A stretch of DNA of 64,000 nucleotides from Alphaproteobacteria bacterium (lineage in GTDB: Bacteria; Pseudomonadota; Alphaproteobacteria; M2410). Shown one piece after another: positions 35,471 to 63,881 of this stretch. Under the pieces are notes generated by a model. The model was not told where the DNA came from. It ran no database searches and was given only the letters and a program-made list of their open reading frames with translations. Each line of letters opens with the position of its first letter. The first letter of the stretch is position 1. The stretch lies in NCBI GenBank assembly GCA_030614785.1, contig JAUWTJ010000009.1:1-64000 (forward strand), read 5' to 3'. The position numbers and the translations under genes were made by a program.

Positions 35471-36286
35471 GTGTCGAGAGCACAAACTGATAATACTTAC
35501 GGCACCGTCATTCTGGTCGGCGCAGGTCCCGGAGACCCGGATCTCCTGACCCTGAAGGCAGCACGGCTGCTCGGGCAGGCGGATGCGGTCGTTTATGATC
35601 GGCTGATCTCTGCAGATGTGCTCAGCCTCATCAATAGTAACGCGGAGAAAGTCTACGCGGGCAAGGGACGCAACAGGCATTCGATGCCACAGGACGAGAT
35701 CAATGAAACACTTCTCTCGCTGGCAAAAACCCACGAGTTGGTCGTGCGGCTCAAGGGCGGCGACCCGTTTACCTTCGGGCGCGGAGGCGAAGAGGCTGAA
35801 TTTTTGATCGCGCGCGGCGTGAGTGTGGAAGTCGTCCCGGGCATTACCTCGGCGGCTGGCGCCGGCGCAAGCCTTGGCCTTCCCCTTACGCACAGGGGCC
35901 TTGCAACGGGCGTGCGCTACGTTACCGGCACCTGCCGCAAGGGTGAGGAGCTTGTCCTTGACTGGGCCAGTCTCGCAGACCCCGACACGACGCTGATTGT
36001 CTATATGGGCCTTGCCAATTTCGGAACAATTGCTGAAAACCTTATCAAGGCAGGGCTTGATCCGAAGACGCCCGCTGCGGCCATTGAGAATGCCACAACC
36101 AAAAGCGAACGACTTTGTGTTGCGACGCTCGCCACGCTGAAAGCTGAAGTAACGCGCCATGAATTCCATCCGCCGACCCTCATCATTGTCGGGCGCGTGG
36201 TGGATGTGGTTGATCAGTTGAAGTTTGCCACTGGCAAATATGTAGCGGAGTTTGAGGAGCTTCTTGATGATGCGGCCCTTCCTTAG
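35471..36286 (+). CDS. nirE: Uroporphyrinogen-III C-methyltransferase (NirE type)
   Basis: The 271-residue SAM-dependent enzyme methylates uroporphyrinogen III at C2 and C7 to give precorrin-2. It has VGAGPGDPDLLTLKA, YAGKGRNRHSMPQDEIN, RLKGGDPFTFGRGGEEA and PGITSAAGAG. Its position at the head of the heme d1 genes favours NirE over CobA, although the product also feeds siroheme and cobalamin synthesis, and cobS/cobT lie about 20 kb away. The start is a GTG with TTGAGG upstream. It overlaps nirC by 20 bases. Confidence 0.9.
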   Translation: MSRAQTDNTYGTVILVGAGPGDPDLLTLKAARLLGQADAVVYDRLISADVLSLINSNAEKVYAGKGRNRHSMPQDEINETLLSLAKTHELVVRLKGGDPFTFGRGGEEAEFLIARGVSVEVVPGITSAAGAGASLGLPLTHRGLATGVRYVTGTCRKGEELVLDWASLADPDTTLIVYMGLANFGTIAENLIKAGLDPKTPAAAIENATTKSERLCVATLATLKAEVTRHEFHPPTLIIVGRVVDVVDQLKFATGKYVAEFEELLDDAALP

Positions 36287-36632
36287 GAAGCTGAACACAC
36301 ATGGCGGGCTTCTGGCAGGCGTCTGCCTTATTGTTGTCTTGTTCACCTTCGGCGTCGGGATACTCCCGGGGGCCTCAGACCTGACCAGCGAAAGGAAGGT
36401 CGAGCTGCAGCATTTTCTTGATCATGATTGTGGCTCCTGCCACGGCATGACTCGCAAGGGCGGTCTGGGATCGCCGCTTGATGCTGAAACGCTTGCAGAT
36501 AAAGACACCGAGACTCTGGTCGCTATTATTCTCGACGGCATTCCTGGCACACCCATGCCGCCATGGCGTCCGCTTTTAACTGAAGAAGAGGCGTTGTGGA
36601 TTGTGCACAGTCTCAAAAATGGAAAGAACTGA
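36267..36632 (+). CDS. nirC: NirC-like cytochrome c (c55X type)
   Basis: The 121-residue protein has an N-terminal membrane or signal segment (about 14-33) and one heme c motif CGSCH near residues 56-60, with Met in PGTPMPPW as the likely sixth ligand. NirC homologues donate electrons in heme d1 formation or to cytochrome cd1. The ATG at 36267 is set by GAGGAG at 36254-36259. Its stop overlaps the nirF start by one base (TGATG). Confidence 0.82.
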   Translation: MMRPFLRKLNTHGGLLAGVCLIVVLFTFGVGILPGASDLTSERKVELQHFLDHDCGSCHGMTRKGGLGSPLDAETLADKDTETLVAIILDGIPGTPMPPWRPLLTEEEALWIVHSLKNGKN

Positions 36633-37861
36633 TGAGCGCTGATCTGAAACGCCGCAAATTTATCAAGGGGGCCAGTCTTGCAGGCCTTGCCGGACTGGGT
36701 GGGCTTGCGCTTGCCACAGGGACCGCCGCACAGACGGCAGGGTCTGATGTAACCTTGCGCGGCACCGGCGATCTGGGCGTTATCATTGAGCGGGCCGATG
36801 GCTCTGTCCTCATTGTCGACACGACCAGGCGCACCGTGATCTGGCGCGTTGAAGGGCTTGGCGATCTGTCCCATGCCTCTGCGGTCTTCTCCCGCGATGC
36901 GCGCTATGTCTTCGTCTTCGGGCGCGACGGCGGTCTCACCAAGGTCGATATTCTTGAAGGACGCATTGCAAAGCGTATCATCCAGGGCGGCAATTCCATC
37001 GGCGGGGCGATCTCGCAGGACGGCGCTCTTGTGGCCGTGTCAAACTACGAGCCCGGCGGCGTGAAGATTTTCGACGCCGAGACACTTGACCTTGTCGCCG
37101 ACATTCCGGCGACCTGGGGACCGGACGGCGCGCGCTCAAAAACCGTGGGGCTGACCGACGCGCCAGGCGGACGCTTTGTTTTTTCACTCTATGACGCCGG
37201 TGAGATATGGGTAGTGACCATGACATCCGGTACGCCGGAAATCGAAAAATTCCCCCATGCCGGCGCCCTGCCCTACGATGGGCTCATCACGCCCGACGGG
37301 CGGTACTACATGGCCGGTCTGTTCGGTGAAGACGGCATGGCGATGCTTGATCTGTGGCAGACCGAAAAGGGTCTGACCCGCATATTGCCCGACTACGGAC
37401 GCGGCGAGGAAAAGCTGCCGGTTTACAAGATGCCTCATCTGGAGGGCTGGGCTGCGGCGGGTGACAAGCTGTTTGTGCCCGGTGTCGGGCGCCATCACGT
37501 TGTCATCATTGATCGCACGACATTCGCCGAAGTGGGCCGCATTCCGGTGCACGGCCAGCCGGTCTTTGTCATGGCACGGCCTGATGGCCGCCATGTCTGG
37601 GTCAATTTCGCGCTACCGAACAACGATACGGTTCAGGTCATCGATGTGCTCACGTCGCAGATTATTCACACCATGAAGCCGGGCAAGGCTGTCCTCCATA
37701 TGGAGTTCTCGCCGCGCGGTGAAGAAGTTTGGGTTTCGGTGCGGGACGAGAATGTCGTGCGGGTCTATGACACGGCGACGTTTGAGGAAATCAGCACGCT
37801 GCCCGCCAAAGCGCCAAGCGGTATCTTTTTTACGGCCCGCGCCGGAAAGACCGGCCTATGA
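36632..37861 (+). CDS. nirF: Heme d1 biosynthesis protein NirF
   Basis: The 409-residue protein begins with a twin-arginine leader (KRRKFIKGASLAGLAGLGG) and continues as an eight-bladed cytochrome d1-type propeller with VDTTRRTVIWRV, FSRDARYVFVFGRDG and VFVMARPDGRHVWVNF. NirF binds and converts late heme d1 intermediates (12,18-didecarboxysiroheme branch) in the periplasm but carries no heme c. The start at 36632 gives a complete leader. It overlaps nirD by 4 bases (ATGA). Confidence 0.9.
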   Translation: MSADLKRRKFIKGASLAGLAGLGGLALATGTAAQTAGSDVTLRGTGDLGVIIERADGSVLIVDTTRRTVIWRVEGLGDLSHASAVFSRDARYVFVFGRDGGLTKVDILEGRIAKRIIQGGNSIGGAISQDGALVAVSNYEPGGVKIFDAETLDLVADIPATWGPDGARSKTVGLTDAPGGRFVFSLYDAGEIWVVTMTSGTPEIEKFPHAGALPYDGLITPDGRYYMAGLFGEDGMAMLDLWQTEKGLTRILPDYGRGEEKLPVYKMPHLEGWAAAGDKLFVPGVGRHHVVIIDRTTFAEVGRIPVHGQPVFVMARPDGRHVWVNFALPNNDTVQVIDVLTSQIIHTMKPGKAVLHMEFSPRGEEVWVSVRDENVVRVYDTATFEEISTLPAKAPSGIFFTARAGKTGL

Positions 37862-38334
37862 GTTACTCACCGCTAGAACAGAAGTTGCTCGACAATTACC
37901 AGCGCGATTTCCCGCTCAGCACCACGCCCTTTGCCGATATCGCGGCAGAGCTTGGCGTCAGTGAGACGGAAGTCCTTGAAACCTTCGGGGCTCTCAAGGC
38001 GCGCGGATCGGTTGGACGGATTGGCGGAATCTTCAAACCGGGGTCGGTCGGGGCGAGCACGCTTGCCGCCATGGAAGTGCCGCAAGACGAGCTGGAAACC
38101 GTCGCTGACTTAGTCTCGAGTTTCGCAACGGTCAATCACAACTACGAGCGCGAACACCGACTGAACCTGTGGTTCGTCGTCGCCGCCGATACGCAGGGCG
38201 AAGTAACGCGTACCTTGCGCACTATTGAAGAGCAAACGGGCTTTGCGGTCCTTGACCTGCCCATGCTTGAAGCCTTTCACCTTGATCTGGGATTTAAACT
38301 GAAATGGAACGGGACATCATCGATCGGCAATTGA
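37858..38334 (+). CDS. nirD: Siroheme decarboxylase subunit NirD
   Basis: The 158-residue AsnC/Lrp-fold protein has an N-terminal winged-helix-like domain and a C-terminal ferredoxin-like half with VNHNYEREHRLNLWFVV. NirD/L/G/H proteins, despite their regulator-like fold, decarboxylate siroheme to didecarboxysiroheme. Sequence pattern and operon place assign it to the NirD/G branch, which pairs with a NirL/H partner. It overlaps the next gene by 31 bases. Confidence 0.87.
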   Translation: MSYSPLEQKLLDNYQRDFPLSTTPFADIAAELGVSETEVLETFGALKARGSVGRIGGIFKPGSVGASTLAAMEVPQDELETVADLVSSFATVNHNYEREHRLNLWFVVAADTQGEVTRTLRTIEEQTGFAVLDLPMLEAFHLDLGFKLKWNGTSSIGN

Positions 38335-38813
38335 TCGCGGTCCTTTCCGAAGGACTACCGATTGTGGCGCGCCCCTATGCGGCGGTCGCGGCTGACCTTG
38401 GCACTTGCGAGGCAGATATTGTCGAGCGGATCAAAAGGCTTGAGGCCGAAGGCGCGCTGAGCCGGTTCGGTGTCATCGTGCGCCATCATGAAATTGGCTA
38501 CCGGGCAAATGCCATGGTGGTCTGGGATGTGCCGGATGACGCGGTGCGCGATCTGGGACGCCGCTTTGCTGATGAGACCTGCGTGACGCTGTGTTACCAG
38601 CGCCCGCGGGGCGAGGGCTGGCCCTATAATCTCTTCACCATGATCCACGGCATCACTCGTGAAGAAACTCTCGCAAATCTCAGCGCCATGATTGCGCGAT
38701 GCGGTCTTGATGACACTCCTCATGATGTGCTCTTTAGTACGCGGCGCTTCAAACAAAGAGGTGCGCGTTACGGCGAGGACAAGTCACAGATGCGGGAGGC
38801 CGCTGCATCATGA
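38304..38813 (+). CDS. nirL: Siroheme decarboxylase subunit NirL
   Basis: The 169-residue partner has DRQLIAVLSEGLPIVARPYAAVA at the N-terminus and CYQRPRGEGWPYNLFTMIHG in the second half, the pattern of the NirL/H branch (AhbB-like). Together with NirD it would remove acetate carboxyl groups from siroheme. The start ATG lies inside nirD. The overlap with nirG is 4 bases, so translation is coupled. Confidence 0.87.
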   Translation: MERDIIDRQLIAVLSEGLPIVARPYAAVAADLGTCEADIVERIKRLEAEGALSRFGVIVRHHEIGYRANAMVVWDVPDDAVRDLGRRFADETCVTLCYQRPRGEGWPYNLFTMIHGITREETLANLSAMIARCGLDDTPHDVLFSTRRFKQRGARYGEDKSQMREAAAS

Positions 38814-39298
38814 ACCGGCCAGCAGGGAAATTGACCGAGACACCGGTCGTTACAATTGACGAGATTGATCGCAAGATCATCAACGGCTTGCAGGGCGGGT
38901 TTCCGATTTCGCCGAGGCCCTATCTCGATGCTGCCGAAAAACTCGGGATCGAGGAACAGGAGCTGATTACCCGCCTCGCCCGCCTGACAGACACCGGTGC
39001 CCTGTCGCGTTTCGGGCCGCTTTATAATGCCGAGCGCGCCGGTGGCGCGGTGACCCTTGCGGCTATCGAGGTGCCACAGGAGCGTTATGAAGAAGTGGCT
39101 GCTCTGGTCAACGCCCATGACGAAGTCGCACACAATTATGAACGCACGCACACACTCAATATGTGGTTTGTGCTTGCGGTCGAAGATCCTGAAGACATCG
39201 AACGTGTAAATGCTGTCATCGAGGAAGAGACCGGCCTCAAAGTTCTCAACATGCCGAAGCTTGAGGAATATTTCCTCGAGCTGAAGCTGGAGGTGTGA
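38810..39298 (+). CDS. nirG: Siroheme decarboxylase subunit NirG
   Basis: This 162-residue second NirD-like subunit contains IDEIDRKIINGLQGGFPISPRPY and VAHNYERTHTLNMWFVLAVED. It closely parallels nirD in layout, and the D-L/G-H order points to duplication of an ancestral pair. Known denitrifiers of the Pseudomonas and Paracoccus types keep all four genes or fused forms. It is translationally coupled on both sides. Confidence 0.86.
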   Translation: MNRPAGKLTETPVVTIDEIDRKIINGLQGGFPISPRPYLDAAEKLGIEEQELITRLARLTDTGALSRFGPLYNAERAGGAVTLAAIEVPQERYEEVAALVNAHDEVAHNYERTHTLNMWFVLAVEDPEDIERVNAVIEEETGLKVLNMPKLEEYFLELKLEV

Positions 39299-39300
39299 GG

Positions 39301-39828
39301 ATGCAGGTTTTTGAACTCGACGACACAGACCGCCGGATTGTTGTGGCGACCCAGGACGGCCTGCCGCTGACACCGCAGCCCTATCACACAATTGCCGAAG
39401 AGCTTGACCTCGCACCGGACGAGGTTATAGCCCGCATGTCCGCCATGCTGGACGGCGGAGCGATCCGCCGTATGGGGGTCATCCCCAATCACTATGCACT
39501 GGGCGTTCGTGCCAATGGCATGAGTGTGTGGAACGTTGCCGATGAGCGCGCCGCCATTGTGGGGCCAAAGATCGGCGCGCTTGCCTTCGTCTCGCATTCC
39601 TATCGCCGTCCGCGCCACTTGCCGGACTGGCCCTATAACCTCTTCGCCATGGTGCACGGGAAAACCCGCGCCGACGTTGAGGCTCACGTAAAAGAGATTG
39701 CAGATCTCCTTGGCGAAGACGACCTTGGCCACGAAATTCTTTATTCAACCCGTATCCTGAAAAAGAAGGGCCTTCGATTATCTTCTGGCGGTCTCTCTTC
39801 CCGCGACCCTTCGACAAAAAGGACATAA
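39301..39828 (+). CDS. nirH: Siroheme decarboxylase subunit NirH
   Basis: The 175-residue NirL-like subunit has DTDRRIVVATQDGLPLTPQPY and HSYRRPRHLPDWPYNLFAMVHGK. The ATG at 39301 is preferred because GGAGG lies 7 bases before it; a GTG at 39295 overlapping the nirG stop is an alternative. It completes the DLGH set for siroheme decarboxylation. The last 25 residues are polar and vary from NirL. Confidence 0.86.
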   Translation: MQVFELDDTDRRIVVATQDGLPLTPQPYHTIAEELDLAPDEVIARMSAMLDGGAIRRMGVIPNHYALGVRANGMSVWNVADERAAIVGPKIGALAFVSHSYRRPRHLPDWPYNLFAMVHGKTRADVEAHVKEIADLLGEDDLGHEILYSTRILKKKGLRLSSGGLSSRDPSTKRT

Positions 39829-39831
39829 GAC

Positions 39832-41034
39832 ATGTTTCGTGTATCCCAGTTTATTGACGAGATTTTTGATCCGAGCGCGGTCGGTCCGCGCCGCGACCCT
39901 CCGGGTCCTGTTGTGATCTGGAACCTCATTCGTCAGTGCAATTTGCTGTGCAAGCATTGCTATACGATTTCGGCGGACAAAAAGTTCCCCGGTGAGCTGT
40001 CGACCGAGGAGGTCAAGGCCGTGATGGCTGACCTGAAGGCCTTTCACGTTCCAGCGCTGATCCTGTCCGGCGGCGAACCGCTGCTGCGGCCCGATATATT
40101 CGAAATTTCGAAACATGCAGTAAACATGGGCTTCCACACGGCGCTTTCGTCCAATGGCACGCTGATCGACGAGGGCGTGGCCGACAGGATTGCCGAGATC
40201 GGCTATGGCTATGTCGGCGTTTCGGTCGACGGGATCGGCGAGACCCACAATACCTTCCGGCGCAAGGAAAACTGTTTCGACGAGGCCATGCAGGGGCTTC
40301 GCCTGTGCCGGGACCGCGACCAGAAAATCGGTCTGCGTTTCACCATGACCGAAGACAATGCGCATGAGCTTCCTGAGATGTTGCAGCTCATCGAGGATGA
40401 AGGCATCGACCGGTTTTATTTTTCCCATCTCAACTATGCGGGACGCGGCAATCACAACCGCAAGGACGACGCCATGTTCCAGACCACGCGGCGCGCCATG
40501 GAAATCCTGCTCGACAAGACACTCGAGTGGAAGAAGCGCGGGGTCCGCAAGGAAGTCGTGACCGGCAACAATGATGCCGACGGCATTTTCATGCTGCTCT
40601 GGGTCGAAAAGCATTTTCCCGAAAGCGCGGAACATATTGCGGGCAAATTAGAACAGTGGGGCGGCAATGCCTCGGGCGTCAATGTCGCCAATATCGATAA
40701 CCTTGGTGTCGTTCATCCCGACACGATGTGGTGGCACCACTCGCTGGGCAATGTGAAGGACAGGCCGTTTAGTGAAATCTGGATGGATACATCTGATCCG
40801 CTGATGGCCGGGCTCAAACAGCGGCCGCGCAAAATTGGCGGGCGCTGCGGCGAGTGCAAATTCTTTGATATCTGCGGCGGCAATACGCGGGTTCGCGCTC
40901 ACCGGATGAGCAACGACTTCTGGGCCGAGGATCCGGGCTGCTACCTCCATGACGAGGAAATCGGTGCGAGCGGTGCAGAGCGGCTGGAACTGAAGCCCTT
41001 CTCCGCAGGCCGAACCGTCACGGTAGGGAAATGA
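39832..41034 (+). CDS. nirJ: Radical SAM heme d1 biosynthesis protein NirJ
   Basis: The 400-residue radical SAM enzyme has Cys36, Cys40 and Cys43 (CNLLCKHC) for the SAM-binding [4Fe-4S] cluster and the GGEPL motif. A C-terminal SPASM-like cysteine region has CGECKFFDICGG and a later Cys near residue 367. NirJ removes propionate side chains from didecarboxysiroheme on the way to heme d1. It starts 3 bases after nirH with AAGGA upstream. The operon then meets a large palindromic repeat. Confidence 0.92.
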   Translation: MFRVSQFIDEIFDPSAVGPRRDPPGPVVIWNLIRQCNLLCKHCYTISADKKFPGELSTEEVKAVMADLKAFHVPALILSGGEPLLRPDIFEISKHAVNMGFHTALSSNGTLIDEGVADRIAEIGYGYVGVSVDGIGETHNTFRRKENCFDEAMQGLRLCRDRDQKIGLRFTMTEDNAHELPEMLQLIEDEGIDRFYFSHLNYAGRGNHNRKDDAMFQTTRRAMEILLDKTLEWKKRGVRKEVVTGNNDADGIFMLLWVEKHFPESAEHIAGKLEQWGGNASGVNVANIDNLGVVHPDTMWWHHSLGNVKDRPFSEIWMDTSDPLMAGLKQRPRKIGGRCGECKFFDICGGNTRVRAHRMSNDFWAEDPGCYLHDEEIGASGAERLELKPFSAGRTVTVGK

Positions 41035-41048
41035 GATCAGGGCCCTGT

Positions 41049-41142
41049 CCTTCGAGACGGATGCCGCGCATCCTCCTCAGGATGAGGGATAACACACAAT
41101 AAGCCCCTCACCCTGAGGAGCCGCCGCGCGGCATCTCGAAGG
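41049..41142. repeat. Large imperfect palindromic intergenic element between nirJ and nirN
   Basis: The outer arms CCTTCGAGA (41049-41057) and TCTCGAAGG (41134-41142) enclose inner arms CCTCAGGATGAGGG (41075-41088) and CCCTCACCCTGAGG (41105-41118, one mismatch). Similar CCTTCGAGA...CCTCAGGATGAGG elements are dispersed in many alphaproteobacterial genomes. In RNA it would form a long hairpin that could separate nirN expression from nirE-J. Confidence 0.8.
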
Positions 41143-41172
41143 GCGAGGCCTGCATAAAGACGAATTGGCTAT

Positions 41173-42644
41173 ATGTTCAAATTTGCACTCCTTCTTGCGG
41201 CGCTGGTCTCCGCGCCCGCATCCGCTGACACAGACGCCCTCTATCAGGAACATTGTGCCGAGTGCCACGGCGCAGACCGCCTCGGCGCCATGGGCCCGGC
41301 GCTTCTGCCGGAAAACCTGGGACGTCTGCGCGCCGCGAAGGCCGAGGCCATCATTCGGGACGGCGAGGTCGCGAGCCAGATGGAGGGCTTCGGTGACAAG
41401 CTGACGGGCGAGGAGATCAAGGACCTTGTGGATTACGTCTTCACGCCGACGGACGAGGTCCCGGTGTGGGATGAAGCCAACATCAATGCCTCCCACATTA
41501 CTGCGGTCGACCCGGCGACACTTGGTGACAAACCGATCTTCGATGCTGACCCGCTCAATCTCTTTGTCGTGGTGGAATCAGGCGATCATCACGTGACCAT
41601 TCTGGACGGCGACAGGTTTGAACCTCTGACACGGTTCCAGTCGCGCTTTGCACTGCATGGCGGCGCGAAATTTTCACCGGACGGGCGTTTCACTTATCTG
41701 GCCTCGCGCGATGGCTGGGTGACGAAATATGATCTTTATACCTTGCAAATTGTTGCCGAGACCCGGGCCGCGATCAATACCCGCAACATCGCCGTTTCCA
41801 GTGACGGTAAATATGTTCTCGCCGGAAACACCCTGCCGCACAATCTTGTTGTCCTTGACGCCGGGGATCTTTCTCTGATCAAGATCCTGCCGGTCACCTC
41901 TGCAAGCGGGGAAAGCTCGCGAGTTTCGGCGGTTTATAATGCGCCGCCACGCCATAGCTTTGTCGCGGCACTGAAGGATTTCAAGGAAGTCTGGGAATTG
42001 CCCTATGGAGACGGCGCCGACCTGACGCCGCGGCGGTTGCAGGTCGATACGGTGCTCGACGACTTCATGTTCGACCAAAGCTATGAGGTGATCATCGGCG
42101 CTGCGCGCGACCTTGAAAAAGGTCAGATCATTGACCTGGATACCGGAAAAAAGAGGGCCGAGATGAACTGGCCGGGATGCCGCATCTGGGCTCAGGGATC
42201 ACATGGGAACTGAATGGCCGGACCGTCTTTGCCACACCGCATCTGACCGAGGCCAAGATCAGCGTGATTGATATGGACAGTTGGGAGACCGTCAAGGAGA
42301 TTGAGACCGGCGGCCCCGGCTTTTTCATGCGATCCCACGAGACGACCAACTATGCCTGGGCCGGTGTGTTCTTCGGACCGAACAAGGATCTCATTCATAT
42401 CATCGACAAGAATACGCTGGAGATTGTCCGGACGCTGAAACCGGCCCCCGGCAAAACGGCGGCCCATGTCGAGTTCACCCGCGACGGTAGCCACGCCCTT
42501 GTTTCTGTACTTGAAGAAGATGGCGCGCTCATTATCTATGATGCAAAGACTCTTGAAGAGGTCAAGCGCTTGCCGATGAAGCGGCCGGTTGGCAAATATA
42601 ATGTCTACAACAAAACTCGATATGTGGAGGGCACCAGCCACTAG
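41173..42644 (+). pseudogene. nirN: nirN, cytochrome c/d1 domain protein, broken by a frameshift
   Basis: The first frame (41173 to a stop at 42213) gives a signal peptide (about 1-18), a heme c motif CAECH at residues 28-32 and the first blades of a heme d1 propeller. The family sequence then switches to another frame at about 42172-42178 and continues to 42644 with MPHLGSGITWEL to the end. Restoring one base in the GGG run of CCGGGATGCCG rejoins the halves into about 490 residues, the usual NirN length. NirN is an electron-bifurcating dihydro-heme d1 dehydrogenase in the last d1 step. Either the gene is inactivated or the assembly lost one G. Confidence 0.82.
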
Positions 42645-54626: not shown

Positions 54627-56801
54627 ATGAAAACGCACTTGAAAACGGTAAAATTTGGAATCGGTCTGTTTGCTCTCGGCATGCTGGCTGTGCTGCCTGC
54701 CTGTTCGGACGAAAAAGCGGACACCAAAACAGCGGAACCTCAAAGTTTTGCTGAACATGTCGGCGAAACAACCGGTCGCATGGACGGGGCCCGCATTGCT
54801 GCGGCCGACGATGAGCCGGGTAACTGGCTGGCGCATGGCCGGACCTATGACGAGCAGCGCTATTCCCCTTTGACAATGATCAATGACCAGAATGTCGGGG
54901 ATCTCGGGCTTGCCTGGAGCTTCGACACCGATACGACGCGCGGTCTTGAAGCCTCGCCAATTGTCGTGGACGGGGTCATGTACTTCACCGGCTCGTGGAG
55001 TACGGTTTTCGCAGTCAACGCAAAAACCGGCGAGGAACTGTGGTCCTATGACCCCGAAGTCCCGCGCCCGTGGGGCAAGAACGCATGTTGTGATGTTGTC
55101 AATCGCGGTGTCGCCGTATGGAAAGGCAAGGTCTATGTCGGCACGATTGATGGCCGCCTGGTCGCGCTTGATGCCGTGGACGGATCGGTTGTCTGGGACA
55201 TCAATACCATCGACCGGTCCAAGCCCTATACGATCACCGGCGCACCTCGCATTATCAAGGACAAGGTCATCATCGGGAATGGCGGCGCGGAACTCGGCGT
55301 GCGCGGATACTTCACCGCCTATGATGTCGCAACCGGCAAACAGGCCTGGCGTTTTTACACGGTCCCTGGCAATCCCGATGAGCCCTTCGAGCACAAAGAG
55401 CTTGAAATGGCGGCCGAGACATGGACAACCGAGGGCAAATACTGGGAAATCGGCGGCGGCGGGACCGTCTGGGACTCCATGGCCTATGACCCGGAGCTCG
55501 ACCTGCTTTACGTCGGAACCGGTAACGGCAGCCCCTGGAACCGCTACATCCGCAGCCCGGGCGGCGGCGACAATCTGTTCCTTTCATCCATTCTGGCGAT
55601 CCGCCCCGACAGCGGCGAACTGGTCTGGCACTATCAGACCACACCGGGTGACAGCTGGGACTATACCGCGACCCAACACATGATTCTGAACGAGATTGAA
55701 TGGGAAGGCGAACAGCGCAAGGTGCTGATGCAGGCACCAAAGAACGGCTTCTTCTACATTCTTGACCGTGTCACGGGAGAACTTCTGTCGGCGGAGAAAT
55801 ATGTAACCGTGACCTGGGCGACCCATGTTGACATGGAAACCGGCAAACCGGTCGAGGACCCGGCCATGTCGATGGAAAATGCCACGCAGGTTATTTTCCC
55901 TGCTCCTGCCGGCGGCCACAACTGGCACCCCATGGCCTACAGCCCGGATACGGGTCTTGTCTACATTCCGGCGCGTGAATACTTTGGCGTTTACAATACA
56001 GACAAGAATTTCAAGGAAGAGCGCGGCAAATGGAACCTCGGGGTTGACTGGGATGCCTATGCTGAGTTCCTGAAAGTCGCTGAAGGTATGGAGGCGCCGC
56101 CGGCGTTCGGAATGCTGCTGGCCTGGGATCCCGTAAAACAGGAAAAGGTCTGGTCTGTTGAAATGCCTACACTGGCCAATGGCGGTGTACTGACGACTGC
56201 GGGCAATCTTGTGTTCCAGGGCACGGGAGACGGCAAGTTTGTTGCCTATGCCGCTGACGATGGAACACCACTTTGGGCGGCGCCGGTTCAGACCGGCATG
56301 ATCGCACCGCCGATCACCTATACGGTCGATGGCGAGCAGTATGTCGCCATCCAGGCCGGGTACGGCGGCATCGGCGTTACGATGAGCGAAGGCCCGATCA
56401 GCAAATACGGCAACGACGGGCGCATGCTGGTGTTCAAACTCGGTGGCGGCGACCTGCCGGCCCTTGCCGAGCGCGACGACAGCATTCCCGAACCACCGGC
56501 CATTGAGGCCACCGAGGCCCAACTGTCTAACGGGGCCGTGAAATTCACCAAATATTGCATGGTATGCCACGGCGCCTATGCGGTGGGCAGCGGCGTGGTG
56601 GCCGACCTGCGCCGCATGACGCCGGAAACGCACGATGTCTTTGGCGAAATTGTTTTAAACGGTCTTTATGAGGAAAAAGGCATGGTCAGCTTCGGTGACT
56701 GGTTGAGCGAAGAGGATGCCCATGACCTTCATGCCTATATCATCGAGCGATCCAATATCTCTCGCGCAGCGCTTGCGGCCACACCTGAACCAGCGCCTTA
56801 A
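54627..56801 (+). CDS. PQQ-dependent alcohol dehydrogenase with heme c (quinohemoprotein)
   Basis: The 724-residue protein has a lipoprotein-type signal (LPAC, Cys26). An eight-bladed PQQ propeller (about 60-600) carries vicinal Cys154-Cys155, Asn300 in GTGNGSPWN and catalytic Asp345 in SWDYTATQ. A C-terminal cytochrome c domain has CMVCH at 644-648 and likely Met686. It oxidises primary or secondary alcohols to aldehydes or ketones at the periplasmic face. Residue 347, two after the catalytic Asp, is Thr rather than Asp, which suggests calcium rather than a lanthanide. GGGAGGA sets the start. Confidence 0.92.
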   Translation: MKTHLKTVKFGIGLFALGMLAVLPACSDEKADTKTAEPQSFAEHVGETTGRMDGARIAAADDEPGNWLAHGRTYDEQRYSPLTMINDQNVGDLGLAWSFDTDTTRGLEASPIVVDGVMYFTGSWSTVFAVNAKTGEELWSYDPEVPRPWGKNACCDVVNRGVAVWKGKVYVGTIDGRLVALDAVDGSVVWDINTIDRSKPYTITGAPRIIKDKVIIGNGGAELGVRGYFTAYDVATGKQAWRFYTVPGNPDEPFEHKELEMAAETWTTEGKYWEIGGGGTVWDSMAYDPELDLLYVGTGNGSPWNRYIRSPGGGDNLFLSSILAIRPDSGELVWHYQTTPGDSWDYTATQHMILNEIEWEGEQRKVLMQAPKNGFFYILDRVTGELLSAEKYVTVTWATHVDMETGKPVEDPAMSMENATQVIFPAPAGGHNWHPMAYSPDTGLVYIPAREYFGVYNTDKNFKEERGKWNLGVDWDAYAEFLKVAEGMEAPPAFGMLLAWDPVKQEKVWSVEMPTLANGGVLTTAGNLVFQGTGDGKFVAYAADDGTPLWAAPVQTGMIAPPITYTVDGEQYVAIQAGYGGIGVTMSEGPISKYGNDGRMLVFKLGGGDLPALAERDDSIPEPPAIEATEAQLSNGAVKFTKYCMVCHGAYAVGSGVVADLRRMTPETHDVFGEIVLNGLYEEKGMVSFGDWLSEEDAHDLHAYIIERSNISRAALAATPEPAP

Positions 56802-56810
56802 AGGAAGACC

Positions 56811-57251
56811 ATGAACGAGAGCCCGAACCGGAATGACGAGCAAAACAGATTGCGGTTACCGCTGCTTTTCCTGCGTCTGACGGTCGGGCTCTTTTTCCTG
56901 CAGTGGAGTGTTGAGAAGATCGTCAAGCCGGAGACAACGGCCAAGATCTTTGATCACTTCTATGGGCTTGATCTGTCACTTTCACTGGCTCAGGCGCTGG
57001 GTGTTGTGGAAGCCCTGGTAGCGCTTGCCATACTTGCCGGTTTCAAACGTCGCTTTACCTATGGCGCTGCCTTCGTGATGCATCTGGGGTCCACGCTGTC
57101 GTCCTGGCAGCAACTGACAGATCCCTATGGCAGCGGCAATCATCTGTTTGCTGCGGCGGTACCCCTGCTCGCGGCGATGTGGCTGCTCTTTCGCATGGCC
57201 GACGACGATGAAATGTTTGCCTTTGACGCGCGGGGTACGAAACAGGTTTGA
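56811..57251 (+). CDS. DoxX-family membrane protein
   Basis: The 146-residue protein has four hydrophobic helices. It begins LLFLRLTVGLFFLQWSVEKIVKPE and has VVEALVALAILAGFKRR, the DoxX pattern. It starts 10 bases after the alcohol dehydrogenase stop with AAAGGAAGACC, so it is in the same operon. DoxX-type proteins are linked to quinone-connected electron flow or to protein maturation, and MauE of the TTQ genes downstream belongs to the same broad superfamily. Confidence 0.8.
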   Translation: MNESPNRNDEQNRLRLPLLFLRLTVGLFFLQWSVEKIVKPETTAKIFDHFYGLDLSLSLAQALGVVEALVALAILAGFKRRFTYGAAFVMHLGSTLSSWQQLTDPYGSGNHLFAAAVPLLAAMWLLFRMADDDEMFAFDARGTKQV

Positions 57252-57252
57252 C

Positions 57253-57269
57253 TGCACCCAAACGGTGCA
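57253..57269 (+). other. Short hairpin after the DoxX gene
   Basis: TGCACC/GGTGCA with the loop CAAAC follows the stop codon after one base. No T-run follows, so it may only slow or process the transcript before the cytochrome gene. Confidence 0.35.
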
Positions 57270-57342
57270 ATGACCTTACAGAAATTGGACAACACTGTTT
57301 CAATCATGAAATGGTTTCAGGGGATTAAAAAAGGACTTCATC

Positions 57343-57822
57343 ATGCCTAAAAGACAGTTCAGAAAAACCGCCTTTACCGCTCTGGCCCTGGTCGCAGCTC
57401 TAGCCGTTTCACAGACGGGTCTGGCGGACGCCGATCATGATCACAGCGCCCATGAAGGGATCTATAAGGAACGCGCCGACACGATGAAATCCTTTGGCGG
57501 TGCAGCCAAGACCACCGGCGCCATGCTCAAGGGGAAGACGCCCTTCGACCTGGCGAAGGCCCGGGCCGCAGGGCAACTGGTTGCTGACAAGGCATCGACG
57601 ATCCCGGCTCTCTTCCCGGAAGGCACCAATGCCGGGGAATCCGAGGCGCTGCCAATCATCTGGCAAGATTGGGAAGGGTTCACAGCCGCCGCCAAACTGC
57701 TGGGCGAGCGGGCCGGCGTTCTGGCTGCGGCAGAAGATCAAGCGGCCGTGGGCGCAGCGTTCGGCGCCATGATCAAGGCCTGTGGCGGATGTCATAAAAC
57801 ATACCGGCTGGACAAGGACTGA
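57343..57822 (+). CDS. Class II cytochrome c (c'/c556 type)
   Basis: The 159-residue protein has a signal peptide (about 1-29, ending GLADADHDH). It has the four-helix class II pattern with RADTMKSFGG near the N-terminus and a C-terminal heme c site CGGCH near residues 147-151. AAAAAAGGACTTCATC precedes the ATG. Its place between the alcohol dehydrogenase and the diheme cytochrome makes it a likely electron carrier for this island. Confidence 0.87.
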   Translation: MPKRQFRKTAFTALALVAALAVSQTGLADADHDHSAHEGIYKERADTMKSFGGAAKTTGAMLKGKTPFDLAKARAAGQLVADKASTIPALFPEGTNAGESEALPIIWQDWEGFTAAAKLLGERAGVLAAAEDQAAVGAAFGAMIKACGGCHKTYRLDKD

Positions 57823-57851
57823 AGTTCGACTGTCAGGTGGAGGCAAGTCTG

Positions 57852-58745
57852 ATGAGAAACCTGTTATTTGTTCTCGCTGGACTTGGCTTGCTGACCGCCG
57901 CCTGGCTTTTCCTCGGCGGGCCTCGACGCGCTATTGATATGACTGCCTATGAGGGCGATGCGATGCGCGGAGCCTATGTGGCGCGCCTTGCAGGCTGTGT
58001 CACGTGCCACACAGTGCCCGAGGGCGGGGCCATGCTTGCAGGAGGCGCACCACTTGCCACACCCTTCGGCACGTTTTATGGCCCCAATATCACATCGGAC
58101 CCGGTGCACGGCATCGGGAGCTGGACAGGCAGCGAATTTGCCGATGCGCTCGTCAATGGTCACAGCGCAAGAACCGGCCATCTCTATCCGGTCTTTCCCT
58201 ATACGTCCTATTCGAAAATGACATCGCCCGATGTCGCTGATCTTTGGGCGTGGTTACAAACCGTTGAGGCGAATAACACACCTTCCAGGCCACATGATAT
58301 CTCAAATCCTTTCCTCGCCCGTGCGCTGATGGCACCATGGAAGACACTGTTTCATGATGTGCAGGAACTCGCGGCTATGCCGGAGCAATCACCAGCCTGG
58401 AACCGGGGCCGTTATATCGTTGACGGTATCGGGCATTGCACCGAGTGCCATACGCCGCGTGGCAGCCTTGGAGTGCTCGACAGGCGCAGGCACCTTGAAG
58501 GCGGCACCCTGCCACCAAAGGGCGGCTCGAAAGGTGAAAAGATCCCCGCGATCACGGCAGAAGCCCTTGCCAAAAGAGGTTACGCTCGCGCTGACCTTCT
58601 GATGGCTTTTCGCTACGGTCTGGCCCCGGACGGTGATGTTCTGGGCGGCAGCATGGGCGAAGTGTTGTCGGATCAGCTGGAACATCTTTCAGCAGATGAC
58701 CTGGAGGCGATCGCGACCTATTTGCTCAGTGGACCCGCCAATTGA
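57852..58745 (+). CDS. Diheme cytochrome c, alcohol-dehydrogenase subunit II type
   Basis: The 297-residue protein has an N-terminal membrane or signal segment (about 3-22) and two heme c sites, CVTCH near residues 51-55 and CTECH near 197-201. Blocks such as GTFYGPNITSDPVHGIGSW and DVADLWAWLQTV are shared with the cytochrome subunits of membrane alcohol and sugar dehydrogenases, which usually carry three hemes; the third is missing here. GTGGAGGCAAGTCTG sets the ATG. It likely passes electrons from the PQQ or TTQ enzyme to the respiratory chain. Confidence 0.86.
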   Translation: MRNLLFVLAGLGLLTAAWLFLGGPRRAIDMTAYEGDAMRGAYVARLAGCVTCHTVPEGGAMLAGGAPLATPFGTFYGPNITSDPVHGIGSWTGSEFADALVNGHSARTGHLYPVFPYTSYSKMTSPDVADLWAWLQTVEANNTPSRPHDISNPFLARALMAPWKTLFHDVQELAAMPEQSPAWNRGRYIVDGIGHCTECHTPRGSLGVLDRRRHLEGGTLPPKGGSKGEKIPAITAEALAKRGYARADLLMAFRYGLAPDGDVLGGSMGEVLSDQLEHLSADDLEAIATYLLSGPAN

Positions 58746-58825
58746 CGGGTATCAAGGAACGCGAGGGCACGCCTTTACATTGTGTAAAAAGCGGTGCAGT
58801 CTTTGACCCATCCAGAGGGTGGAAG

Positions 58826-60055
58826 ATGAAGTTAAATCAACGATATAGTGCGATAGTTGCAGCCTTTGTTCTGGCGCTGGTTTCGGGGCAAGGCGCTTTG
58901 GCAGACCTGCCTCCGGAGGATATCGGCGTGTCCGAAGTTCTGCCGGACGAAACCCCTATGCACTGGGTCTGGGTTGTGGACGCGGGCACAAGTTTTTCGC
59001 GAGCCCTTCTGTTTGACGGAGACACCGGCGAAATGAAGGGCCAGCTTGACACCGGCTACTGGTCACCGGGGATGACCGTCAGTGGGGATCGCAAATCCAT
59101 TCTCGTCAACGAAACCTATTTCTCACATGGATCACGCGGGCCGCGCGAAGACATTGTCGCCGTCTACGATGCAAGCACGCTCACACCGCGCCTGGAAATC
59201 CCGGTACCGCCGCGGCGCATGGTGGCGCTCACCATGCAACATATGATCGGGACCACGGATGACCAGCGCATTCTTGGTATTACAAACTTCACGCCAATGC
59301 GAACGCTCAGCCTCGTGGATCTGAACACGGGAACGCTATTGAGCGAGGAAGATACGCCGGGCTGCGGCCAGATCTATCCCGCCGGAGACAATCGTCTCAT
59401 GACCCTGTGCGGCGACGGCAGCTTTCTCACTTTCACGATGAGACAGGAGGAAGACGGCCAGGTTGCCATACACCGCTCCGGATCTCAGGCCTTCTTCGAC
59501 CCGGATGAAGACCCTGTCATAATCTCGGCGGCGCGGCGCGGTAACAGGTGGTTTTTTGCCTCCTTCAACGGCTATATCCACGAAGTTGATGCGGCAACGG
59601 ATCAGCCCATGCTCGCAGAAAAATGGTCCCTCCTGACGGACAAGGAGCGGCGCAAGGAATGGCGCACGTCCGGGTATCAATCCCTCGCCCTGCACGAGCC
59701 CTCCGGTCTGCTTTATGCCCTGATGCACCGAGGCGCAGAGGAAACCTACGAGGAACCTGGCGAGGAAGTCTGGATTTATGATTCCGAAACCAAGGCGCGC
59801 CTGATCAAGGTTGAACTCGAACATCCCACAGTTTCCATTGCAGTAAGCCGGGATGCGGAACCGCTTCTGTTTGCCTCGGGCTTCAAGACCATTGTCCCGA
59901 CATGGATGCTCTTCACACTGGGTATCACTGGCCAGCTGGGCGATATTTTCACCTACCTGGCGCCGGTTGTTGATGTCTATGACGCACGCACAGGCAAGCA
60001 CCTTCGCACCATCGAGGGTACCGGGACCTTCCCCATTGAACTTCATGTGCCGTGA
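58826..60055 (+). CDS. aauB: Amine dehydrogenase large (alpha) subunit
   Basis: The 409-residue protein has a signal peptide (about 1-27). A seven-bladed propeller of the methylamine/aromatic amine dehydrogenase heavy chain family carries HWVWVVDAGTSFSRALLFDGDTG, YWSPGMTVSGDRKSILVNETYFSHG, and HEPSGLLYALMHRG. The alpha subunit encloses the TTQ-bearing small subunit and shapes the substrate channel. GAGGGTGGAAG sets the start at 58826. Its end overlaps the next gene by 4 bases (GTGA). The symbol follows the likeness of the small subunit to aromatic amine dehydrogenase; mauB is the methylamine equivalent. Confidence 0.88.
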   Translation: MKLNQRYSAIVAAFVLALVSGQGALADLPPEDIGVSEVLPDETPMHWVWVVDAGTSFSRALLFDGDTGEMKGQLDTGYWSPGMTVSGDRKSILVNETYFSHGSRGPREDIVAVYDASTLTPRLEIPVPPRRMVALTMQHMIGTTDDQRILGITNFTPMRTLSLVDLNTGTLLSEEDTPGCGQIYPAGDNRLMTLCGDGSFLTFTMRQEEDGQVAIHRSGSQAFFDPDEDPVIISAARRGNRWFFASFNGYIHEVDAATDQPMLAEKWSLLTDKERRKEWRTSGYQSLALHEPSGLLYALMHRGAEETYEEPGEEVWIYDSETKARLIKVELEHPTVSIAVSRDAEPLLFASGFKTIVPTWMLFTLGITGQLGDIFTYLAPVVDVYDARTGKHLRTIEGTGTFPIELHVP

Positions 60056-60600
60056 GGAACCTGCCCTTGGATCCGGTTTTCAGAACAATTGTTATCCTCT
60101 GCCTGAGCGCGCTTTTTGCGTCAGCGGCGGCGCACAAGCTGCAGAACCGGGCGCTGTTTCAGGATCAGCTTGACGCCTATGGGCTGGTGCCTGAGCCCTT
60201 GATTGGGCCTGCCGCTTTCATGCTGGCGCTGCTTGAGCTTGTGCTGGCGGCGGCCTTGCTGGTTCCCTTCATGGCCTCCACTGCCCTTTACGGCGCGGCC
60301 CTCATATTGATGGTTTACGGTCTGGTCATGGAGCTGGCCATCTGGCGCGGCCACGCAGATATCGACTGCGGGTGCAGCGGCGCCGAGGGGGCGACGTCAA
60401 TTTCAAACGGCCTCGTGCTGCGCAATCTGGTGTTGAGCGCCGTTGCAATCGGAGCCACCCTGCCCTTGCCGGAGCGCGATCTGACCTGGCTCGACATTGG
60501 TCTTTGTGTGCTGGTCGCCGGTACGGTTGTTGCCTTCTATCAAGCTGCCAATCAACTCATGGCCAACAGGCCCCATCTCAAAATGTGGCGGAGCGCCTGA
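60052..60600 (+). CDS. aauE: MauE-type membrane protein for TTQ amine dehydrogenase maturation
   Basis: The 182-residue protein has five hydrophobic helices and the conserved DIDCGCSG motif (about residues 102-109) that gives MauE its suspected disulfide-exchange role with MauD. It starts with a GTG overlapping the large-subunit stop. MauE and MauD are needed for stable, correctly disulfide-bonded small subunit in methylotrophs. Gene order large subunit-E-D-small subunit matches aau and mau clusters. Confidence 0.87.
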   Translation: MRNLPLDPVFRTIVILCLSALFASAAAHKLQNRALFQDQLDAYGLVPEPLIGPAAFMLALLELVLAAALLVPFMASTALYGAALILMVYGLVMELAIWRGHADIDCGCSGAEGATSISNGLVLRNLVLSAVAIGATLPLPERDLTWLDIGLCVLVAGTVVAFYQAANQLMANRPHLKMWRSA

Positions 60601-61235
60601 TGCTGAATACCCTTGTGATATCAAATATTCTTCTGTGGCTTGCGGTGATGGGGCTCGGGCTTCTCGTCCTGTCGCTGGCGCGGCAGGTTGGCATTCTGCA
60701 CGAGCGGATCGCACCTGCGGGCGCTCTTATGGTTGCCAGCGGTCTTGAGGCGGGAACACGCTCGCCGATGTTCGAGGTTGAGGCGCTGGACGGTGAGACC
60801 GTTGATATCGGGAAGCCGCGCGAGGATGCGCGCCGCACCCTGCTCTATTTCCTCAGTCCTACGTGTCCGATTTGTTCGTCCCTTCTGGCCACGGTGCATG
60901 ACATCGGCATGCGTGACAAAACTCTGGACGTTATCCTGATGAGCGACGGGCCGCGCGAGGACCATGATCTTTATCGTCAGCGCAAGAGACGCGAGATTGG
61001 CACCTTCCCCTATGTGCTTTCCGAAGAGGTGGGGCGTGCCTTCGGTATTGGCAAGCTGCCCTATGCTGTCCTCATTGATGGCGACGGCATTGTGTGTGCC
61101 CATGGACTTGTCAACACGCGCGAGCATCTGGAAAGTCTGTTCGAGGCCGAGGCAGCGGGCCTTGCCTCAATGCAGGACTATCTTGCAAAAGAGCGGCGAG
61201 ACGCACCGGACGAGAAAATTCTGGAGGAGGTTTAG
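60600..61235 (+). CDS. aauD: MauD-type thioredoxin-like maturation protein
   Basis: The 211-residue protein has one N-terminal transmembrane helix (about 5-27) and a periplasmic thioredoxin-like domain with the redox site CPIC at residues 89-92. It probably forms or isomerises the many disulfides of the small subunit. Its ATG shares a base with the MauE-type stop (TGATG). Two further features support the fold: the DGETVDIG segment and the LPYAVLIDGDG cis-proline region. Confidence 0.88.
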   Translation: MLNTLVISNILLWLAVMGLGLLVLSLARQVGILHERIAPAGALMVASGLEAGTRSPMFEVEALDGETVDIGKPREDARRTLLYFLSPTCPICSSLLATVHDIGMRDKTLDVILMSDGPREDHDLYRQRKRREIGTFPYVLSEEVGRAFGIGKLPYAVLIDGDGIVCAHGLVNTREHLESLFEAEAAGLASMQDYLAKERRDAPDEKILEEV

Positions 61236-61239
61236 GCTG

Positions 61240-61746
61240 ATGGCTTCATTTGACACGCTGCTTGAGCGCACAACACGCAAGCTTGCACGAAAGACCTCGC
61301 GGCGCGGCTTCCTTGCAAGGCTCGGCGTGGCCCTGACCGGCGCTGCCGCCCTGCCCCTCCTGCCGGTCATGCGGCAAATAGCGCTGGCGAGTGAAAACGA
61401 TCCGGGCGACCCGAAGTCCTGCGAATACTGGCGCTATTGTGCCATCGACGGCTTCCTGTGCACCTGTTGCGGCGGGACAAAAACCTCCTGTCCGCCCGGC
61501 ACCGTCATGTCGCCGATCACATGGGTCGGGACCTGCCACAATCCCGGCGACGGCAAGGACTACATCATTTCCTACAATGATTGTTGCGGCAAAACCTATT
61601 GCGGGCGCTGCCAGTGCATGCGCGACGAGGGCGATCGCCCGATCTACGATCCGGCAAATTCCAACAATATCAACTGGTGCGCCGGCAGCGACGCGGACAT
61701 TGTCTACAATTGCTCGACGGCGATTATCGTGGGAGTGGCCGACTGA
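61240..61746 (+). CDS. aauA: TTQ amine dehydrogenase small (beta) subunit, aromatic-amine type
   Basis: The 168-residue protein has a long twin-arginine leader (SRRGFLARLGVALTG, cleaved near residue 50). The future TTQ residues are Trp95 (ITWVGTC) and Trp146 (NINWCAG), 51 residues apart as in methylamine dehydrogenase. Asp70 and Asp114 match the catalytic and crosslink aspartates, and 14 cysteines lie in the mature part. CAIDGFLCTCCGGTKTSCPPG and HNPGDGKDYIISYNDCCGK are closer to aromatic amine dehydrogenase than to the methylamine enzyme as I remember them. It oxidises amines to aldehydes and ammonia in the periplasm. Confidence 0.93.
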   Translation: MASFDTLLERTTRKLARKTSRRGFLARLGVALTGAAALPLLPVMRQIALASENDPGDPKSCEYWRYCAIDGFLCTCCGGTKTSCPPGTVMSPITWVGTCHNPGDGKDYIISYNDCCGKTYCGRCQCMRDEGDRPIYDPANSNNINWCAGSDADIVYNCSTAIIVGVAD

Positions 61747-62150
61747 TGCTACGTCTTGCCTGCATTCTCGTTCTGACGTTCCTTCCGTGGGCGAGTGCAT
61801 CGGGGCAGACCGCGCGAACCAATTATCTTTTGAACTGTATGGGTTGCCATTTGATGGACGGTTCCGGCACAAGAGACAAGGTGCCATCGCTGAAGGGTGA
61901 GGTTGCCAGATTTCTGCATGTCGATGGCGGGCGCGCCTTTCTGATTCAGGTTCCGGGTACCTCCCAATCAAGGCTGAACGATGCGGAGACCGCAGACGTT
62001 CTCAACTATATCCTGCGCGCTTTCGATCCTGGTCATCTGCCGGATAGCTTTATCCCTTATACCGAAGAAGAAGTCGCGCAGCATCGCGGCACTCAGTTGG
62101 TCGACGCCATGGCGCGGCGCGCCGAACTGGCCGCAGGGTTCCAGAAGTAA
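61746..62150 (+). CDS. Monoheme cytochrome c of the amine dehydrogenase cluster
   Basis: The 134-residue protein has a signal peptide (about 1-20, ending ASASGQT) and one heme site CMGCH near residues 31-35. A Met ligand is not certain; candidates lie after residue 37. A cytochrome of this kind follows the small-subunit gene in known aau clusters and may accept electrons from the TTQ enzyme in place of a blue copper protein. The ATG shares a base with the preceding stop. Confidence 0.85.
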   Translation: MLRLACILVLTFLPWASASGQTARTNYLLNCMGCHLMDGSGTRDKVPSLKGEVARFLHVDGGRAFLIQVPGTSQSRLNDAETADVLNYILRAFDPGHLPDSFIPYTEEEVAQHRGTQLVDAMARRAELAAGFQK

Positions 62151-62875
62151 TGACAGGTAATCTCGAAAAAACCGTGGGGATCATGGGCGGCCTCGGACCG
62201 GAGGCGACCGCAAATTTCTTTTCAAAGCTCATCGCCGCAACGCCTGCCGCAAGCGATCAGGATCATCTCCACATTCTCATCGACAACAACCCGAAAGTGC
62301 CAAACCGACATCTTGCCATACGCGGCCAGAGCCCGAGCGTCGGGCCGGATCTTGTCGCCATGGCGCGCCGCCTTGAAAAGGCCGGGGCCGACTTTGTGGT
62401 GATGGTGTGTAACACCGCCCATGCCTGGACCGGGGATATTCGGGCGGCGCTTGCCATCCCTTTCATCAGCTTCATTGAAGAGGTGGCGGGCCATATCGCC
62501 GCGACATACGCGCCCGGCCCGGTCGGAGTTATGGCCGCGGATGGCTGCCTTGAAGCGCAGCTCTACCAGGACGCCCTCAAGGCCAGGGGATTTGCGCCAG
62601 TTTTGTGGGATAAGGACAAGCTGGAGCGGTTCATGGCCCTGGTTTTTCGCATCAAGGCCGGCGAGCGTGACGATGCCATGGGCCCCGAGATGGCCGCGCT
62701 TGCAGAAGATCTTGCAAGCCGGGGCGCGAGCCTTATTATCAGCGGCTGTACAGAAATCCCGCTGGTTCTGGATGCGGCCGATGTGCGCGTGCCGCTCATC
62801 TCATCAAGTGACCTTCTGGTCCAGCGGACCATAGAGTATGCACGAGGCACAAGGCCTCTGCCCCAAACCATCTGA
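62150..62875 (+). CDS. Aspartate/glutamate racemase family protein
   Basis: The 241-residue cofactor-independent racemase has GIMGGLGPEATANFF near the start and catalytic Cys87 (MVCNTAHAW) and Cys200 (SGCTEIPLVL). It resembles aspartate racemases and broad amino acid racemases more than MurI, which is encoded separately in this window. Its ATG shares a base with the cytochrome stop (TAATG), so it belongs to the amine dehydrogenase transcript. The substrate amino acid is unknown. Confidence 0.88.
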   Translation: MTGNLEKTVGIMGGLGPEATANFFSKLIAATPAASDQDHLHILIDNNPKVPNRHLAIRGQSPSVGPDLVAMARRLEKAGADFVVMVCNTAHAWTGDIRAALAIPFISFIEEVAGHIAATYAPGPVGVMAADGCLEAQLYQDALKARGFAPVLWDKDKLERFMALVFRIKAGERDDAMGPEMAALAEDLASRGASLIISGCTEIPLVLDAADVRVPLISSSDLLVQRTIEYARGTRPLPQTI

Positions 62876-62885
62876 GGACAAACCC

Positions 62886-63881
62886 ATGCATCTGGCCCGT
62901 TTCCCCCGCGTTCGTCTTGCCCACCTGCCAACGCCGCTTGAGCCGATGGCGCGTCTCACCAAACATTTCGGCGGCCCGACGCTCTACGTGAAGCGCGACG
63001 ACTGCACCGGGCTGGCATCAGGCGGCAATAAAACGAGGAAACTTGAATATCTCATGGCCGAGGCGCTCCGCGAAGGCGCTGACACAATCCTGACCCAGGG
63101 CGCGGTGCAATCCAACCATTGTCGCCAGACGGCAGCCGCTGCGGCCAGGCTTGGCATGAAGTGTTTTCTGCTGTTCGAAAAACGTGTCACTGATGCAGAC
63201 GACGCCTACCTCAATTCCGGAAATGTTCTGCTCGACCGAATATATGGGGCCTCCATCCTGGAGTATGATGCGGGTACGGATATGAATACGGCTCTTGGCG
63301 AGGTTGCTGACAAGGTTCGAAGCGAAGGCAGCACGCCCTATATCATACCAGGCGGCGGGTCCAACAAGGTCGGGGCGCTGGGCTATGCCAACTGCGCTCT
63401 TGAACTTGTCGCACAGGCCAATGATATGGATGTGAAAATCGATCACATTATCCACGCGACCGGCAGCGCCGGGACGCAAGGCGGGCTAGTCGCCGGGCTC
63501 AAGGTGATCAATGCCGGCATTCCGGTCCTCGGGATCGGGGTTAATGCGCCGCAGGATATCCAGGAGACACGGGTTTTTAATCTGGCCGAAGAGACCGCCG
63601 ACTATCTCGGCGTGCCAGGCGGCGTTGCACGCTCGGATATCGTGGCCAACTGCAATTATATTGGCGAAGGTTACGGCGTCCCCACGCAAGGTATGCTGGA
63701 TGCGGTTCATCTTGCTGCGCACATGGAGGGATTGCTGTTTGATCCGGTCTATAGCGGCAAGGGCCTCGACGGCATGTTCGATCTCATCAGCAAAGGTCAC
63801 TTTGGCAAAAACGATACGTTGGTCTTCATCCACACCGGCGGCTCGGTGGGACTGTTTGGCTATCAAAATGTTTTTGGATAG
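62886..63881 (+). CDS. PLP enzyme, D-cysteine desulfhydrase / L-cysteate sulfo-lyase family
   Basis: The 331-residue fold-type II PLP enzyme has the PLP Lys49 in SGGNKTRKLE and Ser74 in VQSNHCRQ, like ACC deaminase and DcyD. HATGSAGTQGGLVAG near 200-214 is the phosphate cup. The opening MHLARFPRVRLAHLPTPLEPM recalls the L-cysteate sulfo-lyase CuyA of marine alphaproteobacteria, so either D-cysteine to pyruvate plus sulfide or L-cysteate to pyruvate plus sulfite is possible. GAGGACAAACCC sets the ATG. It follows the racemase by 10 bases. Confidence 0.85.
   Translation: MHLARFPRVRLAHLPTPLEPMARLTKHFGGPTLYVKRDDCTGLASGGNKTRKLEYLMAEALREGADTILTQGAVQSNHCRQTAAAAARLGMKCFLLFEKRVTDADDAYLNSGNVLLDRIYGASILEYDAGTDMNTALGEVADKVRSEGSTPYIIPGGGSNKVGALGYANCALELVAQANDMDVKIDHIIHATGSAGTQGGLVAGLKVINAGIPVLGIGVNAPQDIQETRVFNLAEETADYLGVPGGVARSDIVANCNYIGEGYGVPTQGMLDAVHLAAHMEGLLFDPVYSGKGLDGMFDLISKGHFGKNDTLVFIHTGGSVGLFGYQNVFG

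Follow-up and report, generated by a model that had tools for sequence, protein, structure and literature searches.

Quinoprotein dehydrogenase, cytochrome and cysteate genes in one alphaproteobacterial run: a likely mosaic of known modules

The closest described counterpart of the amine-oxidation genes studied here is the aau operon of Alcaligenes faecalis (structures 2agy, 2h47 and 2iaa), which encodes an aromatic amine dehydrogenase with a tryptophan tryptophylquinone (TTQ) cofactor and is reportedly laid out as B-E-D-A plus a small monohaem cytochrome (Chistoserdov 2001); its enzyme is said to have been crystallised with azurin. In Pseudomonas putida U, the pea and ped genes are reported to provide periplasmic quinoproteins and c-type cytochromes for oxidising both a primary amine and the corresponding alcohol (Arias 2008, a study cited in PMC3644233), and type II quinohaemoprotein alcohol dehydrogenases, which combine pyrroloquinoline quinone (PQQ) with one haem c, are represented by the solved enzymes 1kv9 and 1yiq of P. 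putida HK5. Here we analyse a 64,000-nucleotide stretch of the alphaproteobacterial contig JAUWTJ010000009.1 (the window), in which nine genes at 54627-62150 place such an alcohol dehydrogenase (ADH), a DoxX-family protein and two cytochromes directly before an aau-type operon. A first-pass annotation had proposed that the haem proteins of the run might carry electrons from alcohols and amines along one common periplasmic route. We find that its parts lie apart in other genomes and that the run is likely a lineage-specific mosaic of separately portable known modules, and we see no evidence of a dedicated combined system.

Like the Alcaligenes operon, the locus has the large-E-D-small order with a monohaem cytochrome gene, the TTQ and catalytic residues and no mauG in the cluster. 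Unlike it, the operon here is preceded by the ADH, DoxX and cytochrome-pair genes and runs directly into the cysteate genes cuyBA, in a genome without an azurin-family protein. The pea and ped sets reportedly hold a cysteine tryptophylquinone quinohaemoprotein, regulators and aldehyde dehydrogenases, whereas the present run has a TTQ enzyme and neither regulators nor aldehyde dehydrogenases. We found no paper in the open-access literature on TTQ aromatic amine dehydrogenase gene clusters themselves.

The nine genes are all present on the forward strand, in frame and without internal stops, and family matches bear out both their first-pass identifications and the juxtaposition of the two halves, as well as the tally of four carrier CxxCH haem sites plus a fifth on the PQQ enzyme. 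The intergenic gaps up to the TTQ large-subunit gene are 9, 91, 29 and 80 nt in order, the second and fourth being the previously noted 57252-57342 and 58746-58825; from there to the monohaem cytochrome gene, neighbours overlap or lie at most 4 nt apart. The end point needed revision, as the same-strand run continues past 62150 to 63881 with two further genes, cuyB and cuyA. Upstream of the ADH gene, at a distance of 135 nt, lies an amidase gene on the same strand. The contig measures 69 kb and belongs to a 148-contig assembly of a genome that is 99% complete with 0.13% contamination. A mis-join is unlikely because base composition is even across the run. An origin by a mobile element was considered and is unsupported, with no tRNA, no notable flanking repeats and the same even GC content.

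Separate occurrence of the modules in other genomes

Comparing gene neighbourhoods of the small subunit, the check proposed in the first pass, showed that the parts occur separately and that the exact arrangement is apparently unique to this locus. A scan of a genome collection with the small subunit gave 79 loci, and a class-wide scan found aau in 12 of 385 genomes, with one genome per species. All loci collected in this way were then searched with profiles derived from the genes of the window; gene calls at these loci came from a simple script, and statements on strand and adjacency rest on the profile matches. Among the 73 TTQ loci with at least 4.4 kb before the large-subunit gene, none had, within 4.6 kb upstream and on the same strand, any of the ADH, DoxX, cytochrome c' or dihaem cytochrome genes, and the juxtaposition seen here was found nowhere else in the survey. 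Relatives carry the two halves in unrelated places, which by the first pass's own yardstick speaks against the linkage, and it is not conserved. In a member of the same family (G220), aau, ADH and the cytochrome pair occupy three different contigs, away from contig ends, and in a genome assembled as a single 3.74 Mb contig (G009) the positions are 0.33 Mb for aau, 1.49 Mb for DoxX and 3.55 Mb for ADH.

Each module also has a life of its own. In about 40 loci ADH has none of the other modules with it, and DoxX is separate from them in every one of the 18 other loci that carry it. The cytochrome c' and dihaem cytochrome genes are paired in all 22 other loci, never with aau genes; one of these (L251) has a partial ADH match about 5.6 kb from the pair. 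Homologues of the dihaem cytochrome occur in 135 of the 385 genomes. The nearest relatives of the individual modules belong to different lineages, which is what separate histories would predict. Judged on this comparison of sequences, the juxtaposition is apparently unique and the modules themselves appear ordinary. The case argues for caution, as adjoining redox genes on one strand mimic a pathway and only comparison reveals that the parts move separately.

A few TTQ loci do have a PQQ dehydrogenase gene in the vicinity. Three Novosphingobium loci (L063, L080 and L324) carry one upstream of aau on the opposite strand. One of them, on plasmid pABRDHK22 of Novosphingobium sp. EMRT-2 (L324), resembles the present locus in having the PQQ-dependent dehydrogenase gene about 2.8 kb from the aau operon, but there it is on the opposite strand with a TonB receptor between and with no DoxX or cytochrome pair. 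In N. aromaticivorans pNL2 the aau operon has no PQQ dehydrogenase gene next to it. Two Pseudomonas loci (L088 and L092) were considered as instances of the same arrangement and rejected; their PQQ dehydrogenase lies about 6-7 kb upstream behind opposite-strand genes and lacks a haem motif in the available part. The Novosphingobium and Pseudomonas co-locations are different, rare arrangements with no conserved association.

Enzymes, cofactors and electron acceptors

The first-pass annotation had described a complete large-E-D-small TTQ set with a cytochrome; the gene set stands, with the correction that the enzyme is of the aromatic-amine type. The large subunit (58826-60055, forward strand; PF06433, 140.6 bits) is AauB-like, scoring 164 bits to aromatic amine dehydrogenase 2h3x and 120 bits to methylamine dehydrogenase. 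It is followed on the same strand by the MauE/AauE membrane protein (60052-60600; PF07291, 81 bits), the thioredoxin-like MauD/AauD accessory protein (60600-61235; TIGR02661, 206.5 bits against a cut-off of 188.6) and the AauA-type small subunit (61240-61746; PF02975, 173.5 bits), whose best solved match is aromatic amine dehydrogenase 2agl (164 bits, versus 130 to methylamine dehydrogenase). Aligned with 2agl and relatives, the small subunit keeps the two tryptophans that we take to form TTQ, the presumed catalytic aspartates and the cysteine pattern. A small-subunit tree places it and the Alcaligenes enzyme 2agl on one side (support 100/99), although 2agl forms a long branch. A monohaem cytochrome c (61746-62150; PF00034, 28 bits; CMGCH) closes the operon. 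The four core aau genes and the cytochrome homologue stand together in 75 of 88 other TTQ loci, and with the B-E-D-A order, the cytochrome and no mauG in the cluster, the TTQ half reads by its gene content as an aromatic-amine-dehydrogenase operon of known layout. A methylamine dehydrogenase was rejected; both subunits score below the NCBI equivalog cut-offs (148 against 454 and 174 against 197 bits), the tree argues otherwise, and neither amicyanin nor mauG occurs within the run.

In the predicted pathway, AauD and AauE would help to fold and oxidise the disulfide-rich small subunit, in which two tryptophans would become TTQ. The mature enzyme would oxidise primary, probably aralkyl, amines to aldehyde and ammonia and hand the electrons on to c-type cytochromes, the simplest candidate being the product of the gene immediately downstream. 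The azurin/amicyanin family (PF00127) has no match in the genome; here, as for the other genome-wide absences that we report, the negative rests on family searches. Azurin is known as the acceptor in one species and is not required of the aromatic amine dehydrogenase family. Because the genome lacks an azurin- or amicyanin-type copper protein, c-type cytochromes are probably the acceptors for both the TTQ and the PQQ enzyme.

The sole CCP_MauG homologue of the genome sits on another contig. Four other genomes (G009, G143, G202 and G238) have aau operons yet no CCP_MauG (PF03150) homologue anywhere, and therefore another protein must finish TTQ there. This bears on TTQ completion in aromatic amine dehydrogenases, for which the small cytochrome just downstream in most aau loci is a candidate. 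The dihaem cytochrome of the run was considered as a MauG substitute and rejected; it groups with cytochrome subunits of fructose/alcohol dehydrogenases and travels without aau genes. Nine loci, gammaproteobacterial and similar (L042, L046, L048, L051, L070, L076, L087, L091 and L093), hold two TTQ large-small pairs close together, and in most of them the first pair lacks E and D genes.

At the upstream end of the run, the ADH (54627-56801, forward strand; TIGR03075, 660.7 bits against a cut-off of 480; haem motif CMVCH) matches 1kv9 and 1yiq over nearly its full length, with 785 and 764 bits. In alignment with these it keeps the adjacent cysteine pair, the WDYTA stretch, the PQQ-site residues and the C-terminal haem domain, that is, the PQQ propeller with cofactor residues and the haem domain that define the type II quinohaemoproteins. 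It differs from the HK5 enzymes in its setting, as a DoxX gene follows it and its host has neither pqqC nor pqqE. The genome's best PqqE match, far below the cut-off, is the NirJ protein of a haem d1 cluster in the window, and the pqqC search, which gives no match in this genome, detects pqqC in another genome (G123) at E 4e-108. The ADH would need imported or scavenged PQQ because both genes are missing from a genome that is 99% complete; PQQ scavenging is common among Gram-negative bacteria (PMC12124388). Supplied with imported cofactor, the periplasmic enzyme would pass electrons from its substrate to PQQ, on to its own haem c and then to a soluble acceptor. Six relatives (G220, G116, G309, G009, G143 and G349) have the same ADH type and likewise no pqqC or pqqE.

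Between the two dehydrogenases lie what we would count as the second and third modules. The DoxX-family membrane protein (56811-57251, forward strand; PF07681, 31 bits against a cut-off of 23.6) has no cysteines. The cytochrome pair consists of a class II cytochrome c' type protein with one haem (57343-57822, forward strand; PF01322, 99 bits; CGGCH near the C-terminus) and a dihaem cytochrome c with two CxxCH motifs (57852-58745, forward strand), which is similar, at 149 bits, to the cytochrome subunits of membrane fructose/alcohol dehydrogenases. The pair is conserved across Alphaproteobacteria (L140, L141 and L250-L269) with no other constant neighbour.

The fifth module comprises the cysteate racemase CuyB (62150-62875, forward strand; NF052483, 257 bits against a cut-off of 190), whose start lies 1 nt inside the stop codon of the monohaem cytochrome gene, and, after a 10-nt gap, the D-cysteate sulfo-lyase CuyA (62886-63881, forward strand; NF052482, 522.7 bits against a cut-off of 450). 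As in the described cysteate breakdown pathway (PMC11382572), a racemase stands with a sulfo-lyase, both above curated cut-offs, and together they would racemise L-cysteate to D-cysteate and cleave it to pyruvate, ammonia and sulfite. The position directly after an aau operon is new relative to that pathway; cuyBA was near none of the other aau loci scanned. Elsewhere cuyA occurs without other genes of the run, and cuyB directly adjoins cuyA in several genomes. Three other genomes of the order gave no cuyA match at E 1e-85.

Transcription and competing explanations

The 80-nt gap before the large-subunit gene contains a perfect palindrome, TTTACATTGTGTAAA (58774-58788), possibly an operator of a separate aau unit. 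It is the sole exact copy in the window, where four copies with up to two mismatches occur against 0.46 expected; the sequences upstream of the large-subunit genes in relatives showed no palindrome with its half-site. Promoter and terminator scans performed no better than on shuffled sequence, and no terminator was found in the gaps. We infer that this gap probably holds a promoter of the aau operon that drives at least part of its transcription, and that the run most likely comprises at least two transcription units.

Three points weigh against reading the run as a mosaic. Co-transcription is possible because the genes share a strand, the gaps are short and no terminator was found in them. 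Only four genomes of the order were compared, two of them without an aau match, and such a sample could overlook a young but functional fusion. What speaks most for the first-pass proposal is that, without an azurin-type protein, the cytochromes could serve both enzymes. If the genes were truly co-expressed, amine and alcohol oxidation would recently have been fused onto a common set of cytochromes, in an organism unable to make PQQ.

We weighed the proposal of a single operon in which cytochrome c', the dihaem cytochrome and the monohaem cytochrome take electrons from both the PQQ and the TTQ enzyme. Tight same-strand spacing, unbroken by a recognised terminator, four carrier haem sites and the missing copper-protein acceptor are what such a route would lead one to expect, but the arrangement recurs in 0 of 73 comparable loci, the parts are separate in G220 and G009, the cytochrome pair elsewhere accompanies neither enzyme and the unique palindrome precedes the TTQ genes. 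We consider a shared alcohol-plus-amine system unlikely on this evidence, and the first-pass claim of one is unsupported. A narrower link would have the PQQ enzyme convert the aldehyde product of the TTQ enzyme to acid in the periplasm. Other aau loci have an aldehyde dehydrogenase (26 loci) or an AMP-binding ligase (20 loci) nearby and this locus has neither near aau, and therefore the PQQ enzyme could, speculatively, take over that step; short-chain aldehydes are among the substrates that PQQ alcohol dehydrogenases from Pseudomonas oxidise (PMC12997753). Yet the same ADH type stands alone elsewhere, without aau, and an organism unable to make PQQ offers a poor basis for an obligatory step, which leaves this role improbable and a little less credible than the shared route.

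The overlap of cuyB with the last aau gene by 1 nt, with cuyA behind it and both products above curated cut-offs, invites a further reading in which an amino or hydroxy sulfonate such as cysteinolate is oxidised by the upstream enzymes to cysteate, which CuyB and CuyA would then degrade. Against it, cuyBA is near no other aau locus, its nearest relatives have no ADH or aau alongside, the next 5 kb held no recognisable gene for a sulfonate transporter or a sulfite exporter, and the TTQ enzyme resembles aralkylamine enzymes; we regard a sulfonate operon as very improbable, the least credible of these accounts. The broadest idea, rated on a par with the aldehyde-oxidising role, is that five once-separate modules have fused into one transcription unit that would carry alcohol, aldehyde and amine electrons over a copper-free cytochrome c'/dihaem/monohaem route with scavenged PQQ, linked to cysteate breakdown. 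A mosaic of known modules accounts for the run better than any of these.

The haem d1 cluster

Elsewhere in the window, at 35471-42644, lies a haem d1 biosynthesis cluster, in which NirJ (39832-41034) is confirmed by TIGR04051. A cytochrome-propeller gene at 41173-42644, NirN- or NirS-like by position, is split in the assembly by a frame shift near 42177-42213.

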